A DNA stretch of 64,000 nucleotides, taken from Taklimakanibacter lacteus. Its GTDB lineage: Bacteria > Pseudomonadota > Alphaproteobacteria > Rhizobiales > Aestuariivirgaceae. This document shows, one piece after another, positions 3,212 through 15,995 of this stretch. The position numbers and the translations under genes were made by a program. Each line of letters begins with the position of its first letter. Positions within the stretch are counted from its first letter, which is position 1. The notes beneath the pieces were generated by a model. The model was not told where the DNA came from. It worked only from the letters and a program-made list of their open reading frames with translations, and did not search any database. The stretch spans positions 1-64,000 of the forward strand of contig QOZQ01000010.1 in the NCBI GenBank assembly GCA_003576695.1. Direction: 5' to 3'.

Positions 3212-3766
3212 ATGTCGCAAACAAAAGAACTTCAGACCAAGCGCTTCAGCCTTCGCCCGATCACCCCGGACATGGTCAGTGACAACTGGATAAGATGGAC
3301 CGGCGATCCGGTTCTCATGTCGCAGATGAACGCGCGCGTGGTGAAGCTTTCGCGCGCCGACCTGCAGCGTTATGTCGTCGCCGTCTGGAAGAGCAAGAGG
3401 ATGATCATCGGAATCTATGCGCGTACCGGCGCCGACCATATCGGGATCTATGAGGTGGCGGTCGATCCCCGCAATGCCAATATTACCCTTGATGCGCTTG
3501 TGGACCAGCAGAGATATGTCTTGCCGAACGTGCTGGCGGAAACGGATCCGGTGCTGCTGCGGTTTTTCGCCGGTGACCAGCGCATCGAAAAGGCGATAGC
3601 GCAGGTTGTCGAGACGAATGCCCCCCTCATCAGCCACTATGAAGCGACTGGCTGGGTGAAGGAAGGCGTTCTGCGGCAGGAGGTTCACGCAGCTTCCGGC
3701 AACCGCCGTCTCGATGTCGTCCAGTTCGGCAGGATCCTTGCGAGCGAGCAGCCAGAGAGAACCTGA
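3212..3766 (+). CDS. GNAT-family acyltransferase (first of three)
   Basis: A 184-residue protein that opens the GNAT/P450/ACP operon. The ATG at 3212 is preferred because residues encoded upstream in the same frame look non-coding. The fold is suggested by the N-terminal FSLRPITPDMV strand-helix, typical of RimJ/RimL-like GNATs, and a C-terminal NAPLISHYEATGWVKEG segment matching the last acetyltransferase helix and strand. It resembles the next two genes in layout (xxRP start, IGIY strand, late neighbour-helix) but is the most divergent. Family knowledge says GNATs transfer an acyl group from CoA, sometimes from ACP, to an amine or hydroxyl. Acceptor unknown. The stop at 3764-3766 is one base from the next start. 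Confidence 0.65.
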   Translation: MSQTKELQTKRFSLRPITPDMVSDNWIRWTGDPVLMSQMNARVVKLSRADLQRYVVAVWKSKRMIIGIYARTGADHIGIYEVAVDPRNANITLDALVDQQRYVLPNVLAETDPVLLRFFAGDQRIEKAIAQVVETNAPLISHYEATGWVKEGVLRQEVHAASGNRRLDVVQFGRILASEQPERT

Positions 3767-3767
3767 G

Positions 3768-4391
3768 ATGGCCAAGCTCCCGCCTCCCGATTTCGTGCTC
3801 GCGAGCGAAAACTTCGTCATTCGTCCGCTCGTCCGCGGCGATGCCAGCCCCAAGCTCGAGTCCTGGATAGACGACGAGAATGCTGCGGCGATGCTGAATA
3901 CGCCGCGGCGCAGCTGGACGGTCGCTCAGCAGGAAGATTTCTTTGGGCGGCATGAGGGCCAGCAGCAGCGCCTCATTCTGGGTATATTTCCCAAGCAGGC
4001 CAGGGAGCCGATTGGCCTGTTCATCGTGAAGGTCGCTGTGAGGGACGGTGTTTTCGTCATATCCCATCTGATCGGTGACAAGGCCTGGCGCGGCAAGAGC
4101 ACGACTTTCGAGGCTTCCGAGGCCGTCTACGACTATTTCTTCAACACCCTGGGCTACGACAAGGCCAAGGCGAATGTCCGCCCCGAGAACAAGGCGATGT
4201 TGTGGCTTCTATACACCTATGCATGGCGCAAGGAGGTACGTCTCATCAGGCACCTGCGCCTGACCGGATCGCGGGAGCGGTCCGATCTCGTGGTATTCGG
4301 CATGCTGGCCGATGAGTGGCGGGCGCGGCACGAGAAGCTGCGATTCCACCCCCAGGGCAAGGCGGGAGCAGACTCGACGGTGCGATCATGA
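3768..4391 (+). CDS. GNAT-family acyltransferase (second of three)
   Basis: A 207-residue protein starting at ATG 3768, one base after the previous stop. It is a close paralogue of the gene at 4453. Shared blocks are PPPxFxLxSExFxIRPL at the start, MLNTxxRxWTVAxQ, LGIFPK, FFNxLxYxKAKANVRPxNxAM near residues 125-145, and VFGxLADxWR at the end. The KAKANVRPENKAM helix is where RimJ/RimL-type GNATs carry their ENxxS-like acyl-donor contact. Its TGA overlaps the ATG of the micro-ORF at 4388. Acceptor and donor are unknown; the two ACP genes downstream make an ACP-bound donor conceivable. Confidence 0.7.
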   Translation: MAKLPPPDFVLASENFVIRPLVRGDASPKLESWIDDENAAAMLNTPRRSWTVAQQEDFFGRHEGQQQRLILGIFPKQAREPIGLFIVKVAVRDGVFVISHLIGDKAWRGKSTTFEASEAVYDYFFNTLGYDKAKANVRPENKAMLWLLYTYAWRKEVRLIRHLRLTGSRERSDLVVFGMLADEWRARHEKLRFHPQGKAGADSTVRS

Positions 4392-4456
4392 GCGCATCTG
4401 AGTTGCCGGCGAGGTTGCCGGAAAAAATCGCCGATCGCCGGGACATCGCGCCATGA
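4388..4456 (+). CDS. Candidate 22-residue micro-ORF bridging two GNAT genes
   Basis: Reading from ATG 4388 gives 22 codons ending in TGA 4454-4456. The start overlaps the upstream stop as ATGA, and the stop overlaps the downstream ATG at 4453, again as ATGA. Without it, this would be the only junction in the operon with a 61-base gap. The peptide is mildly basic, with no hydrophobic segment or known motif. It may be a real small protein, a translational-coupling device that carries ribosomes to the third GNAT gene, or the remnant of a lost gene. Confidence 0.4.
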   Translation: MSASELPARLPEKIADRRDIAP

Positions 4457-5055
4457 ACGGCCTGCCGCCCCCCGGGTTCAGCATCGAGTCCGAGAACTTC
4501 ATAATTCGCCCTCTCGGGCGCGCGGACGCAACTCCGGCAATGGAGGCATGGACAGAAGACGAAGTCGTCGTCGAGATGTTGAACACGACGCCGCGGCGTT
4601 GGACGGTTGCGGAGCAGGTTGCCTATATCTCGCGTTACGACGGAAAGCGGACGCGCTACCTGCTCGGCATCTTTCCCAAAGCGGAGAGCACGCCGATCGG
4701 CTTCTTCATCGTGAGATTGCGACCGCACGACCAGCTGATGTTGGTGACGCACGCGTTGGGCCGGAAGGAATGGCGCGGGAGCGGTGCGTCGCGGGAGGCG
4801 TCCATAGCGATCTTCGATTTCTTTTTCAACAAGCTTTCCTACGCCAAGGCCAAGGCGAATGTTCGGCCGGACAACAGGGCGATGCAGTGGCTGCTGCTCA
4901 ATGGGGGCTGGCGGGTGGAGGCTCGTCTGCAAAAGCATCTGCGCAGGAGCTCCACCGGCGAGCGTATGGACATGCTCGTCTTCGGCATTCTGGCGGACGA
5001 TTGGCGGGTGAACCGGGACTTGGCGAAGACCGTGCGCAGGCGGGCCAAGCCATGA
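4453..5055 (+). CDS. GNAT-family acyltransferase (third of three)
   Basis: A 200-residue paralogue of the gene at 3768, sharing all the blocks listed there, including the KAKANVRPDNRAM helix and the WRGSGASREAS segment where GNATs usually bind the donor pyrophosphate. The start ATG 4453 overlaps the micro-ORF stop, and the TGA (5053-5055) overlaps the ATG of the P450-like gene. The pair probably arose by tandem duplication inside the operon and may act on two positions or two acceptors. The direct link to P450 and ACP genes points to a shared pathway, but the reaction cannot be deduced. Confidence 0.7.
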   Translation: MNGLPPPGFSIESENFIIRPLGRADATPAMEAWTEDEVVVEMLNTTPRRWTVAEQVAYISRYDGKRTRYLLGIFPKAESTPIGFFIVRLRPHDQLMLVTHALGRKEWRGSGASREASIAIFDFFFNKLSYAKAKANVRPDNRAMQWLLLNGGWRVEARLQKHLRRSSTGERMDMLVFGILADDWRVNRDLAKTVRRRAKP

Positions 5056-6077
5056 GGACCTCCGAGTTCCATCTCGCCGCAAATCGGCGTCAGCATTTTG
5101 CCGCCCTGGAACCGAAGGTCTGGCTTGAAACGTCGCTCTTGAGAACCTGGGTGATCGCCGATCCGCAGGTGATCGCCAAGGTGCTGCGCAGCCGGCATGC
5201 CGTCATCCTCAGCGTCGAGGAGTTCATCGATTCCATCGAGCGGGCCTATGATGTAACCTTCCCGTGCGTACGCTTTGCCGCGCGCCACCTGCCGCTTTTT
5301 CTCGAGGGCGATATCCATGCCGAACGGCGCCGGAGCTTTTCGCGCTACCTGGCCAGCCGGATGGCGGAGCTGGAGCGCCATCTTCCCGACCTCGTCGCGG
5401 GTCGGCTGGAGCCATTCCGGCGCAAGGGAGTTGTCGATCTCGTATCCGAGGTCACCGGGCCTCTGGTCCGCGATATCAATTCCATATTCGTCGAGCGGCA
5501 GGTGACCGAGGAGATCGGCGCCTTGAATCTCCTCGATCTGTTCGCGCTCAACAAAAGCGTGCGGCGGTTCAAGGATCTCGAGGAGCGAGTGGGTCGGGCG
5601 ATCGCGTTCCTGGCCGCCGAGGGAGAGGACGAAGACCTTCTCGGATCCCGCTTCTCGGCCCTGACCATGGGCTTCGAGACGCTGATGACCATGTTGACGG
5701 AGGATCTCCATACGGCATTTCACGATCATGCGGGTGATCGCGTGCGTCTGCCGGACTATCCGATAGAGACCGGCGTTCCGCTGAGTTACCGCAGGGCCGG
5801 AAGCGATTTCGAGATGGGTGGGTATGCTTTCAAGGCCGGCGATCTCCTTCGTCTTCAGATGCAGACGACGGGCTATTCCGGGCGCCGGGCGGATCGCGAG
5901 ACCATGTTCGGCGCGGGAACGCATTCCTGCGTCGGAAAGCAGGCATCCTTGCGGATCTGGAATGCGCTCAAGCAGGCGTTCGACGCGATGGAAGTCCGCG
6001 GTCGCGTCAAAGCCAGCGAGCTTGTCCCCTCCCACTACATGGTTCGCCACAGCTTTGTTCATGTCGAGGTGATCTGA
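5052..6077 (+). CDS. Short divergent cytochrome P450-like protein (module 1)
   Basis: A 341-residue protein with the P450 haem-ligand signature FGAGTHSCVG at residues 286-295 (Cys293). It also has a C-helix-like HAERRRSF segment near 89, an I-helix-like MGFETL (206-211) keeping the acid-alcohol E-T pair, and the YRRAGSDFEMGGY strand that precedes the meander. It is about 60 residues shorter than typical bacterial P450s. The missing part lies between the I helix and YRRA: the J/K-helix region is collapsed, and the near-universal ExxR motif is not present (the local sequence is PIETGVPLSYRR). Start ATG 5052 overlaps the preceding stop; the stop overlaps the ACP start. Likely a carrier-protein-dependent oxidase or a P450-derived non-oxidase. 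No ferredoxin gene is nearby. Confidence 0.75.
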   Translation: MRTSEFHLAANRRQHFAALEPKVWLETSLLRTWVIADPQVIAKVLRSRHAVILSVEEFIDSIERAYDVTFPCVRFAARHLPLFLEGDIHAERRRSFSRYLASRMAELERHLPDLVAGRLEPFRRKGVVDLVSEVTGPLVRDINSIFVERQVTEEIGALNLLDLFALNKSVRRFKDLEERVGRAIAFLAAEGEDEDLLGSRFSALTMGFETLMTMLTEDLHTAFHDHAGDRVRLPDYPIETGVPLSYRRAGSDFEMGGYAFKAGDLLRLQMQTTGYSGRRADRETMFGAGTHSCVGKQASLRIWNALKQAFDAMEVRGRVKASELVPSHYMVRHSFVHVEVI

Positions 6078-6337
6078 TGAACCGAGAGGAAGCAAAGTCG
6101 ATGCTTCTCGATGTGCTCCATTCGATGGAGCTTATTTCCAAGGTCGAGAGGGATGCTGCGGCCGCGCCCGGCGCCGACGACATCGAGCTCGGCAGGCTCG
6201 GTATCGACAGTATGGCAGTCGTTGACATATGCGTCGAGGTCGAGGGCAAGATCGGCCGGGAACTGCGCGTCGAGGAGATCATCGACAATCCCACCGTCGA
6301 TATGCTGGCGGCCCATCTCGCCAGTCCCGCGCCATGA
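6077..6337 (+). CDS. Acyl/peptidyl carrier protein (module 1)
   Basis: An 86-residue acidic protein with the carrier-protein fold signature. LGIDSMAVVDIC places the phosphopantetheine serine at Ser45 in the Asp-Ser context, and LRVEEIIDNPTVDMLAAHL matches helices III and IV. DSM replaces the usual DSL, and the residue set resembles stand-alone carriers of secondary metabolism more than AcpP. TGATG fuses it to the upstream P450-like stop, and its own TGA overlaps the next ATG. It probably tethers the substrate seen by the adjacent P450-like enzyme. The activating phosphopantetheinyl transferase must be encoded elsewhere. Confidence 0.85.
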   Translation: MNREEAKSMLLDVLHSMELISKVERDAAAAPGADDIELGRLGIDSMAVVDICVEVEGKIGRELRVEEIIDNPTVDMLAAHLASPAP

Positions 6338-7368
6338 AGTCCTACCAGCTCCATTTGGCGCGGGATCGGCGCGATTTGTTCGCGCAACTGTCTCCTGCCG
6401 TCTGGTGCGAAACCGGAATCCTGCGCACCTGGGTCGTGGCCGATCCTGCCCTGGTCACGCGGATCATGCGCCATCCGTCGACAGTCATTTCGGATTTGGC
6501 CGAGGCGGTCAGGACCGTCAGGACGAAATTCGCAATCGAACTCCCCAATATCGACTTTGCCTGCAGCGTCCTTCCCGTGCTGGTCAGCGATGACGTGCAT
6601 CCCGACATTCGGCGCGGCTTTGCCACGTTCCTCTCCGGCCGTCTTGTCGAGCTCAATGCCGAGCTTCCCGGCATGGTCGGGGCCAGCCTGGCACCGCTTG
6701 CCCGGCGGGGCCAGGTGGACATCATGGCAAGCGTCATCAGGCCGCTCATGCGCCGGTTGTTCTCGATTTTCCTCAAGGCCGACATGCCGGAGGATTTTCT
6801 GTCTCTGCATGTCATCGAGATCCTCTCCTTCAAGGCGATGGTCGGGCATCTGAAGAGCCTCGATGCGCGCATCGGCAGGGCGCTCAGCTTTCTGCGCGCG
6901 ACCTCTGCAGACGAAAGGGAGGTCGGCTGGAAGTTCATCTGCCTGGTTTTCGGGCTGGACTCGGTGACGATGATGCTGGCGGAGGGGATTGTAGCCGCGC
7001 TGCGGGAGTTCGAATCCGGGCGCACCGACGCCGTGAAGCTTCCCGATTTTCCGGTCGAAACCGGCGTTCCGGTCTCGCATCGCCGTGCAAAGAGCGATTT
7101 TGAGATAGATGGGCACAAGTTTGCCGCCGGCGACTGGATACGCCTGCAGATGCAGTCGCTCGGCTATTCGCCGGCGCCTGATGATCGAAAGTTCATCTTT
7201 GGAGCCGGTGCGCACTCTTGTCTCGGCAAGCAGGTCTCGCTGCGCATATGGGATGCCTTCAGGCAGGAATTTGACAGCTTGAACTTGCGGGCGCGGCTGA
7301 TCGACTACAGCATCTTCCCATCCCATTACATCATCTATCACGATTCCATTCAGCTAGAGGTATTCTGA
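6334..7368 (+). CDS. Short divergent cytochrome P450-like protein (module 2)
   Basis: A 344-residue paralogue of the protein encoded at 5052. The haem signature is FGAGAHSCLG at 289-298 (Cys296). The I-helix region reads FGLDSV, giving a D-S instead of an E-T acid-alcohol pair, and SHRRAKSDFEIDG matches the pre-meander strand. As in module 1, the J/K region is shortened and the ExxR position reads PVETGVPVSHRR, with no matching arginine. Both proteins end in a FPSHY/VPSHY block followed by a beta strand. The shared loss shows it predates the duplication and is not a sequencing error. Start and stop both overlap carrier-protein genes. Confidence 0.75.
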   Translation: MKSYQLHLARDRRDLFAQLSPAVWCETGILRTWVVADPALVTRIMRHPSTVISDLAEAVRTVRTKFAIELPNIDFACSVLPVLVSDDVHPDIRRGFATFLSGRLVELNAELPGMVGASLAPLARRGQVDIMASVIRPLMRRLFSIFLKADMPEDFLSLHVIEILSFKAMVGHLKSLDARIGRALSFLRATSADEREVGWKFICLVFGLDSVTMMLAEGIVAALREFESGRTDAVKLPDFPVETGVPVSHRRAKSDFEIDGHKFAAGDWIRLQMQSLGYSPAPDDRKFIFGAGAHSCLGKQVSLRIWDAFRQEFDSLNLRARLIDYSIFPSHYIIYHDSIQLEVF

Positions 7369-7619
7369 TGCAGTCTGACGCAGCGAAGGCCGCGATCCTG
7401 GACGTTTTGAAGGAGCTGGAGCTCCTTAACGACAAGGCCGAGATGCCGGATATCGAGTTTGCCAGCCTGAGCATTGACAGCATCAAGGTCGTCGATCTGT
7501 GTGTGGCGCTCGAGGAGCGGTTCGGGCGCGAGGTTTCGATCGAGGAACTGGTGGAGAACCCGACGGTGAACCAGTTGGCGGCCCATCTCGCCAAGGTAGC
7601 TGCGGTCAGGCAGGTCTGA
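7368..7619 (+). CDS. Acyl/peptidyl carrier protein (module 2)
   Basis: An 83-residue paralogue of the carrier at 6077. The attachment serine is Ser38 in LSIDSIKVVDLC, and VSIEELVENPTVNQLAAHL gives helices III and IV. The start ATG shares one base with the upstream P450-like stop (TGATG), repeating the junction of module 1. It is the last gene of the operon; the convergent polysaccharide gene ends twelve bases further on and no clear hairpin lies between them. Two dedicated carriers paired with two oxidase-like proteins suggest two parallel or successive tethered substrates. Confidence 0.85.
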   Translation: MQSDAAKAAILDVLKELELLNDKAEMPDIEFASLSIDSIKVVDLCVALEERFGREVSIEELVENPTVNQLAAHLAKVAAVRQV

Positions 7620-14777: not shown

Positions 14778-15995
14778 TCAGTGGGCGCCTTGCCCGAAGA
14801 CGGCGCGTCGCGCTTTGGCAAGCGCATTCCAGAGCAGTGGCGTGCGCTTTATGAAACGCTTGCTCGCCAGGACGATGCTGCGGTGCAGCGCCCAGGCATA
14901 GCCGCACGGCGTCAGCCCGCGCACACCGTGGAACAGTTCGATATGTTCATCCGCCCAGGCCAGCTTGTAGTCGAAGCTGCCGGTCGAGAAATCGAAGAAC
15001 TTCAAGCCACGGCCGCAGCAGGCCTCGATCGTCCGGCGCAGCAGCGCATCGCCCGGCGAATAGCGCCGCAGCCTCGGTGAGCCGAGCGAAGAGATCAGCG
15101 CCCAATATCCGCCGCCATAGTGTCCGCCAAGCGCCACCGCCTCCAGTTCGCCATCCGCCTTCATGCAATAGGGTAGCAGGACGGGCTGCATGTGGTCGGG
15201 CAGGTCGATGAGGCGGTGCATGAATTGTCTTTCATGGGTGTTGAAGACGCCATGGATGCCGCTTTCGGCAAGCCTGGATTTTTGCTGCTCGAACATGTCT
15301 TCGATAAGCTGATGCGCCTGCGCTCGGTCCTGTGGCAGGCCGACCTCGATCTTCGCCGCCTTGGCGAGCTTGGCGTCGCGCTTGCGGTTGCCGCGCCGGG
15401 TCTCGCCGGAGCGCTTGCGCGCATAGAGCGCCTCGAAGTCTTCTCCGAGCCTCAGCACATAGGAGAGATTTCGTCCGGCGAATGAGAACCAGCTCGCCAG
15501 CGGATGAGCGCAACCTTCCCACTTTGCCGGCATATCGGCGAGATCGACGGCATCGATGTTGTGCAATTGCGCAAGGACGTTCCAGCCCTCTGCGGCGAAC
15601 CAGTCGGTTGCGCGGTGCAGGAACCGGCGGTCATAGAGGCCGTAGCCATAGGTCATTTGCTGTCCGCCCATCCATTCGAGGACACGGCAGCCTTGCCTCC
15701 GGCGCGCGCAGAAGGGGAGAAGAAACAGGAGTTCGCCGGACGGGTCTCGGCCGGTGACGATGACCGGTTCCGCTTTCGCCGCGGCGCCGGCGGTGGCGAT
15801 CCAGGCGCTGCACCACTGATAGGTCTGGAAGAAAGTGCCCGCGGCGCGATCCTGGAAGGCAAGCCAGTCCGCTTCGAGCCCATAGAGCGTGTCATACGCT
15901 TCGATCGCGATGCGGGGCGCATGGGCCGGCTCCGCCGGCCCGGCGGGAAGCCAACGCGCCTGTTCCTGCAGGGGTGTGGCGGGCACTATGCTCAA
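14778..15995 (-). CDS. FemAB/CelD-type GNAT acyltransferase
   Basis: A 405-residue protein of the Acetyltransf_6 group found in polysaccharide and cellulose loci. Diagnostic segments are TFFQTYQWCSAW early, a RKRSGETRRGNRKRDAKLAK basic patch mid-protein, then LEAVALGGHYGGGYWALISS and YSPGDALLRRTIEACCGRGLKFFDFSTGSFDYKL near residues 280-350, the usual late CelD block. It probably adds an acyl group to the polymer or its precursor. It is convergent with the copolymerase gene (six bases apart) and divergent from the deacetylase gene. Confidence 0.78.
   Translation of the reverse strand: MSIVPATPLQEQARWLPAGPAEPAHAPRIAIEAYDTLYGLEADWLAFQDRAAGTFFQTYQWCSAWIATAGAAAKAEPVIVTGRDPSGELLFLLPFCARRRQGCRVLEWMGGQQMTYGYGLYDRRFLHRATDWFAAEGWNVLAQLHNIDAVDLADMPAKWEGCAHPLASWFSFAGRNLSYVLRLGEDFEALYARKRSGETRRGNRKRDAKLAKAAKIEVGLPQDRAQAHQLIEDMFEQQKSRLAESGIHGVFNTHERQFMHRLIDLPDHMQPVLLPYCMKADGELEAVALGGHYGGGYWALISSLGSPRLRRYSPGDALLRRTIEACCGRGLKFFDFSTGSFDYKLAWADEHIELFHGVRGLTPCGYAWALHRSIVLASKRFIKRTPLLWNALAKARRAVFGQGAH

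Follow-up and report, generated by a model that had tools for sequence, protein, structure and literature searches.

A conserved operon of GNATs, shortened P450-like proteins and acyl carrier proteins with an outer-membrane partner in Taklimakanibacter lacteus

P450s such as P450sky, which depend on a peptidyl carrier protein (PCP), act on carrier-tethered substrates, and P450sky-type enzymes beta-hydroxylate carrier-held amino acids. FeeM and LuxI are acyl carrier protein (ACP)-dependent N-acyl synthases with a GNAT-like fold, i.e. they use acyl-ACP. Another P450 with a carrier partner is P450BioI, also named CYP107H1. According to the available text of PMC7645780, the Bacillus subtilis enzyme acts on an ACP-bound acyl chain. 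RtxC/HlyC proteins have a GNAT fold without elements for coenzyme A (CoA) and move an acyl group from ACP to a protein (available part of PMC8339906), and gene clusters with a paralogue of methionyl-tRNA synthetase (MetRS) hold ACP, acyl-CoA ligase, GNAT and transacylase-like genes (available part of PMC2922099). Here, we describe an operon in a stretch of 64,000 nucleotides (nt; hereafter the window) at the start of contig QOZQ01000010.1 of Taklimakanibacter lacteus (GCA_003576695.1; assembly of 5.78 Mb in 24 contigs). At positions 3212-7619 of the + strand, seven genes lie end to end and encode three GNAT-fold proteins (G1 to G3), two shortened P450-like proteins (P1, P2) and two ACPs (A1, A2) in the order G1-G2-(micro-ORF)-G3-P1-A1-P2-A2, where ORF stands for open reading frame.

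The operon is real and conserved, and we take it for a variant of P450 tailoring on a carrier, in which the P450 is unusual and the partner, an outer-membrane barrel protein (OMP), unexpected. It is best understood as two nested GNAT-P450-ACP modules that share an additional GNAT, G1. From gene content, conservation, predicted fold and pairing we consider it somewhat probable that the operon serves acyl tailoring and transfer in two modules, with the substrate tethered to ACP. A previous reading of this DNA from its letters alone (hereafter the sequence-only reading) had placed the operon and its gene order correctly, and its interpretation is partly supported. It knew of no described system with this gene order, and we also did not find the gene combination in titles and abstract starts of open-licence PubMed Central papers, a sample that is no proof for everything in print. 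The genes are as follows.

3212 to 3766, + strand: G1, divergent protein assigned to the GNATs by fold, with a degenerate CoA-loop motif
3768 to 4391, + strand: G2, GNAT (PF13302); assigned to P2-A2 by the gene order in L061, L062 and L021
4388 to 4456, + strand: micro-ORF of 22 amino acids (aa) between G2 and G3, an open reading frame
4453 to 5055, + strand: G3, GNAT (PF13302); groups with the GNAT of L063 (99/97)
5052 to 6077, + strand: P1, mini-P450-like protein of 341 aa, with Cys293 in the heme loop and no ExxR at the K-helix position
6077 to 6337, + strand: A1, ACP (PF00550), Ser in IDSM
6334 to 7368, + strand: P2, mini-P450-like protein of 344 aa, no ExxR at the K-helix position
7368 to 7619, + strand: A2, ACP (PF00550), Ser in IDSI

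Outside the stretch with the micro-ORF, neighbouring genes are separated by a 1-nt gap or overlap by 1-4 nt, a spacing that looks like that of translationally coupled operons. In trees of the GNATs, P450s and ACPs, G3, P1 and A1 each pair with their counterparts from the same-genus locus L063 (99/97, 100/100 and 100/99, respectively; L labels denote fetched loci, and G followed by three digits denotes genomes), and G2, P2 and A2 fall outside this pair. P2 and A2 are most similar to the proteins of L061, a grouping of G2, P2 and A2 that the trees leave unsettled. The gene order is G1-G3-P1-A1 at L063 and G1-OMP-OMP-G2-P2-A2 at L061. Because of these orders and the ties of G3, P1 and A1 to L063, the arrangement G2-(G3-P1-A1)-P2-A2 in the window is most readily accounted for by a G3-P1-A1 module placed between G2 and P2. 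Hence, the sequence-only reading named the right families with three GNATs and a duplicated P450/ACP unit, but the duplicated unit is GNAT-P450-ACP, which leaves one extra GNAT. The micro-ORF overlaps the stop of G2 and the start of G3 by 4 nt each. In 12 comparisons with the 5' ends of the P450 genes, its likeness was no better than the 4-5% level of shuffles, a weak sign that it is possibly the relic of a junction.

P1 and P2 share 41% identity and belong to a short, divergent P450-like family, for which Pfam gives no match, PF00067 included, at an expect value (E) of 1 or below. A profile made from 16 members of this mini-P450 family matches solved P450s with E 2e-15. H89 and R93 (HxxxR) as well as G289, C293 and G295 (CxG) are invariant in 24/24 intact aligned members, the last three within the heme-thiolate loop FxxGxxxCxG, of which F286 is present in 23/24. 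Furthermore, R247 is retained in 22 of the 24, and at the place of the I-helix acid-alcohol pair, D/E stands as the acid in 19/24 and S/T as the following residue in 16/24. Compared with six ordinary P450s, the family lacks a segment after the I-helix and ahead of the R247 strand, just before the place of the K-helix ExxR, which is missing in 21/24 members (P1, P2 and 19 others). L027, L079 and L159 retain an ExxR string directly before T240 and may reveal a stepwise loss of the J/K-helix segment. The mini-P450 gene of genome G609 (L077, 9662-10692) is broken across two frames; it was left out of the alignment and included in the ACP adjacency count given below.

The deleted segment, the loss of ExxR from P1 and P2 and the missing Pfam match would fit heme-free or inactive P450-fold proteins that merely dock an ACP. 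We regard this as distinctly unlikely, because the conserved Cys, HxxxR and CxG are kept throughout and P450s without the canonical ExxR have been described. The available part of PMC3599690 names CYP157, which has E-x-x-W type motifs at this place and no ACP link in that text, and it also reports one CYP105 sequence in which the I- and K-helix are missing. Since P450s without ExxR are on record, its loss alone is therefore no bar to P450 identity.

The pairing with a carrier protein is constant among the members found. An ACP gene adjoins 25/25 mini-P450 genes, 23 times downstream on the same strand, once upstream (L078) and once convergent (L076). Among 26 loci with ordinary P450s, read to approximately 1.5 kb past the match, only one has an ACP gene (L034, where it adjoins an ordinary-length P450, 606-2172); the ACP profile behind both counts was built mostly from mini-P450-linked ACPs and favours mini-P450 loci. 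The set comprises the 25 genes from 21 genomes for which loci were fetched, and these are not independent, because it includes close pairs (L061/L062, L023/L024, L028/L029, L030/L031). Ordinary-length P450 matches of the class and order searches, with open frames of 405-551 aa, as well as the long-frame matches L007 and L008, were excluded before counting; the 26 control loci come from these ordinary-length matches. The mini-P450 profile finds matches in 11/397 genomes of the order at E<=1e-12 (10 of the mini type; G015 has a 472-aa frame), in 13/69 genomes of the family at E<=1e-15 and, within the genus, in each of the 4 other genomes searched. At class level, 27 of 385 genomes have a match at E<=1e-8, and those of the mini type occur only in the own genome, G609 and G292. 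All 5 same-genus genomes examined, the own one included, have clusters with GNATs, as do two less closely related genomes of the family, L064 (G804) and L134 (G799), and because of this recurrence we do not regard the GNAT-type cluster as a product of chance.

The AlphaFold model of P1 (predicted local distance difference test, pLDDT, 79.8; predicted template-modelling score, pTM, 0.79; alignment of 6) is that of a P450, narrowly closest to ACP-bound P450BioI. In the model, the I-helix ends at residue 225 and the next helix starts only from 279. Foldseek returned 1341 PDB matches at E<=0.001. All 50 listed ones are P450s, with TM-scores of 0.53-0.71, and among these 50 the ranks 1-9, 11, 13 and 14 are chains of P450BioI:acyl-ACP and rank 10 is P450sky2. 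Together with the adjacent ACP genes, this nearest match by E-value supports the earlier proposal that the P450 substrate would be ACP-tethered. The operon P450s differ from P450BioI in the missing J/K-helix segment, the adjacent ACP gene and the GNAT and OMP neighbours, and no link to biotin was seen.

Given this nearest structural match, one could assume that the mini-P450s are BioI-like cleavers, which cut fatty acyl-ACP down to a short acyl-ACP of the dicarboxylic or aldehyde type, to supply biotin or a related short acyl donor, the GNATs being incidental. Alpha/beta-hydrolase-like genes beside other mini-P450s would agree with this, one of them giving a weak BioH match (E 0.01) among many. 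However, identity to P450BioI is just 12-13% in the structural alignment, below the 40% rule for CYP families, and no biotin genes were recognised beside the loci, though no profile search for them was made. Moreover, the available text of PMC7645780 reports four alphaproteobacteria that make the pimelate part via BioZ, with no BioI gene found. Taken together, we give a role in biotin-type supply little credence.

Both ACPs are recognised by PF00550 (A1 37.3 bits, A2 50.1 bits, cut-off 20.8), and the phosphopantetheine Ser is present in 22/22 adjacent ACPs listed and visible in 3 further ones. For A2, the DltC model gives a better match (E 9e-7) than the generic acyl_carrier model does (E 2e-5), which together with the rank of P450sky2 could point to PCP-like ACPs holding an amino acid that the P450 beta-hydroxylates and the GNATs acylate or transfer. 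Such aminoacyl tailoring appears unlikely to us, as both A2 matches are far below the curated cut-offs, no condensation domain was seen, and the ligases of the related clusters L134 and L082 are classed solely as AMP-binding. The operon resembles PCP-dependent P450sky systems in the carrier-tethered substrate that we propose and differs in having no modules of a nonribosomal peptide synthetase (NRPS). In the seven operon proteins, Pfam and NCBIfam detect no ketosynthase, condensation, adenylation or thioesterase domain. A cluster of the NRPS or polyketide synthase type was rejected for the window since ketosynthase, condensation and adenylation domains are absent from the operon. The sequence-only reading was correct in this respect, but an adenylate-forming ligase does occur in L134 and L082.

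G2 and G3 are recognised by PF13302 (41.8 and 45.1 bits, cut-off 25.4), for which G1 with 14.5 bits fails. G1 is a GNAT by fold and not by score: its AlphaFold model matches GNAT structures, among them the nucleotide-sugar acetyltransferase PseH. By sequence and fold, G1 to G3 are nearest to RimL/SpeG/PseH acetyltransferases, and no LuxI, FeeM or RtxC family match was obtained for any of them in Pfam and NCBIfam at E<=1. The comparison with LuxI and FeeM made by the sequence-only reading was not borne out in this regard; what is alike is the GNAT-like fold and the ACP, and the use of acyl-ACP by these GNATs is our assumption for proteins nearest to acetyltransferases. G1 and its relatives are without the CoA-loop motif, the only ones of which this is visibly true, and G2 and G3 partly keep it (WRG). 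In this feature G1 resembles RtxC/HlyC as presented in the available part of PMC8339906, but the missing RtxC match and the likeness to RimL/SpeG/PseH set G1 to G3 apart.

The third partner of the mini-P450-ACP pair is variable. A GNAT stands beside the pair in 8 genes (two in the window, L021, L061, L062, L063, L064 and L134), and an alpha/beta-hydrolase-like protein in 12 (L023-L025, L028-L031, L075, L077, L079, L159, L161). Six of the latter were tested in Pfam, where L023 alone scored above the cut-off, L079 (E 4e-4), L077 (0.003) and L030 (0.08) gave weaker values and L028 and L075 no match; the remaining ones were assigned by eye from homology or a G-x-S-x-G elbow. A family of approximately 265 aa takes this place at four loci, L026, L076, L078 (tested only within a profile) and, by eye, L160; L027 has no clear third partner. 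For the approximately 265-aa protein of L026, L076 and L078, an LpxL-type acyltransferase was considered and found unsupported by any Pfam, NCBIfam or PDB match. Such variation would be expected of a P450-ACP pair whose tethered product is released or transferred by different enzymes, and because the 8 GNATs or 12 hydrolase-like proteins could offload an acyl group, we count them in favour of acyl tailoring and transfer. The toolkit of carrier, ligase, GNAT and alpha/beta-hydrolase resembles that of the MetRS-paralogue clusters in the available part of PMC2922099. However, no tRNA-synthetase paralogue was noticed at the mini-P450 loci, and that text describes neither a mini-P450 nor a barrel protein.

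The sequence-only reading missed the OMP genes just upstream of G1, which belong to the cluster, as the OMP family occurs at 7/7 GNAT-type loci. The copies of the window are the following.

2 to 352, + strand: C-terminal portion of an OMP, truncated by the contig start (OMP profile E 1e-52)
635 to 1561, + strand: OMP copy 2, with a signal-peptide-like N-terminus and the conserved C-terminal tail
1904 to 2890, + strand: OMP copy 3 (PF13505 OMP_b-brl, 29.3 bits, cut-off 28.7)

The arrangement GNAT1-OMP(s)-GNAT2-miniP450-ACP is seen at 5/7 loci (L021, L061, L062, L064, L134), and the OMP lies upstream of GNAT1 in the window and at L063. Common to these OMPs are a start that looks like a signal peptide and, past the last strand, a conserved tail (RT/RS..DNT....E..P). 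At E<=1e-12 the family is found in 17/69 genomes of the Aestuariivirgaceae, and among 297 genomes of the order only the own one and G247 have it at E<=1e-20, i.e. it is nearly confined to the Aestuariivirgaceae. In 9 of the 12 genomes with an OMP copy at E<=1e-60, a GNAT stands beside one copy; the copies of G247, G809 and G810, the last two on short contigs, have no adjoining GNAT. No GNAT-type locus was found without a member of the OMP family, which makes a product tied to the cell surface probable, and this positional link of the GNAT branch suggests surface attachment of an oxidised acyl group. A more specific possibility, by analogy with HlyC-type toxin acylation, would be dedicated OMP acylation, in which an ACP-loaded fatty acid is oxidised by the ExxR-less mini-P450 and placed on the barrel by the GNATs, with sulfation by Stf0 in some relatives. 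We rate this as rather improbable.

Related clusters add further components. L080 (G264) has four OMPs, an ACP, a 415-aa ordinary P450 (PF00067, E 6e-39) and a GNAT, and L082 (G269) has an OMP and, on the opposite strand, an AMP-ligase, a GNAT and an ACP. In L134, the order GNAT-OMP-GNAT-miniP450-ACP is followed by a Stf0 sulfotransferase frame that overlaps the ACP gene and, 0.4 kb past it on the same strand, by an AMP-ligase truncated by the contig end; in L061 and L062, Stf0 adjoins the last OMP. Together, these clusters hold the set of ligase, ACP, P450, in some cases sulfotransferase, and GNAT. Because the ligase is present in L134 and L082, the absence of a loading enzyme does not define the system. 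The best ligases of the own genome, the only ones viewed in their genomic context, are a generic-looking acyl-CoA ligase (L104) and one in a sphingolipid-type operon (L151), neither with a link to the cluster. In L151 (contig C19, 8432-12729) genes for an AMP-ligase, an NAD-epimerase-like protein, an ACP and a serine-palmitoyltransferase-like protein stand in a row, an arrangement also present in L152 and L153, which we take to be similar to a bacterial sphingolipid operon.

The chemistry, the donor and the acceptor that we infer for acyl tailoring and transfer are as follows. Each ACP would carry an acyl or aminoacyl group on its phosphopantetheine-binding Ser, and in the absence of a loading enzyme from the operon, this group would be supplied by a ligase encoded at another site of the genome or by the fatty-acid pool. 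The adjoining shortened P450 would bind the ACP and oxidise the tethered chain by hydroxylation or BioI-like cleavage. The GNAT of the module (G3 with P1-A1, G2 with P2-A2) would then take the oxidised acyl group off the carrier and place it on an acceptor, perhaps assisted by the shared divergent G1. In this scheme, the barrel could be the acceptor, an exporter or something else.

Several observations weigh against this proposal. The chemistry of the operon enzymes is deduced from context and predicted fold, and catalysis by the mini-P450s is not assured, because the J/K-helix segment is gone and P1 and P2 have no ExxR. The heme loop is the worst-modelled part of P1 (pLDDT < 50), and the lead of P450BioI is narrow and one of E-value, the TM-scores of other P450s being similar. 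By the local profile, 17/25 mini-P450s have no adjacent GNAT, so that the GNAT lies outside the core of the family. Furthermore, G2 and G3 may only acetylate, because they retain the WRG loop and their closest solved GNATs are acetyltransferases. No Stf0 relative was found in the window's genome, its ligase matches are generic-looking or belong to another operon, and some OMP copies stand without a cluster. Six loci with weaker or second OMP copies (L135-L140) have no GNAT, and the copies at L083, L084 and L085 of the own genome stand alone within 14 kb.

The compact P450-like family lies outside Pfam recognition, and each member found has a carrier protein as its partner. Its members, mostly without the ExxR hallmark, permit a direct test of a minimal P450 for heme binding and catalysis. 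Moreover, the constancy of the OMP in the GNAT branch suggests that Aestuariivirgaceae have a surface modification or a surface metabolite that is as yet undescribed.

Downstream of the operon, exopolysaccharide (EPS) genes follow on the - strand, for a Wzy_C-like protein (under the Pfam cut-off), a WcaJ-type transferase, a glycosyltransferase of the GT4 type and an export protein, together with a Wzz-type gene on the + strand. The first EPS gene ends 12 nt from the operon end on the opposite strand, and the GNATs could acylate an amino sugar of this polysaccharide, with which PseH among the structural matches of G1 would be consistent. We consider such a decoration quite unlikely, as EPS genes follow only in the window, L021, L061 and L062, while the OMP, by contrast, accompanies all GNAT-type loci. 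In L063, A1 is followed by a MarR-like gene, which in the window lies past the EPS genes; L064 has no EPS genes beside the cluster, and none were recognised on the 11.5-kb contig of L134. Adjoining the polysaccharide genes of the window (14778-15995, - strand) is a gene for a 405-aa protein, by eye another type of acetyltransferase.

A mobile element was considered and rejected, with no match obtained in plasmids with P2 or in viral contigs with A3. Two of the lone barrel copies have conspicuous neighbours: that of L084 (contig C1, 6594-12747) lies 0.7 kb upstream of a Cas9-like gene (RuvC_III, HNH_4), accompanied by Cas1 and, by eye, probable Cas2 genes, and that of L083 (contig C7, 3334-7771) lies near phage-like packaging genes with the look, by eye, of terminase and portal genes. 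Window position 1 falls within a barrel-gene array, and contig C24 terminates in a barrel gene (L086, 7552-8118) with 98% identity to the window copy at 635-1561. This terminal gene is preceded by plsX-fabH-ihf-merR-like genes in the same arrangement as in L061. Because of this near-identical terminal gene and the L061-like gene order, the window contig and C24 probably abut.

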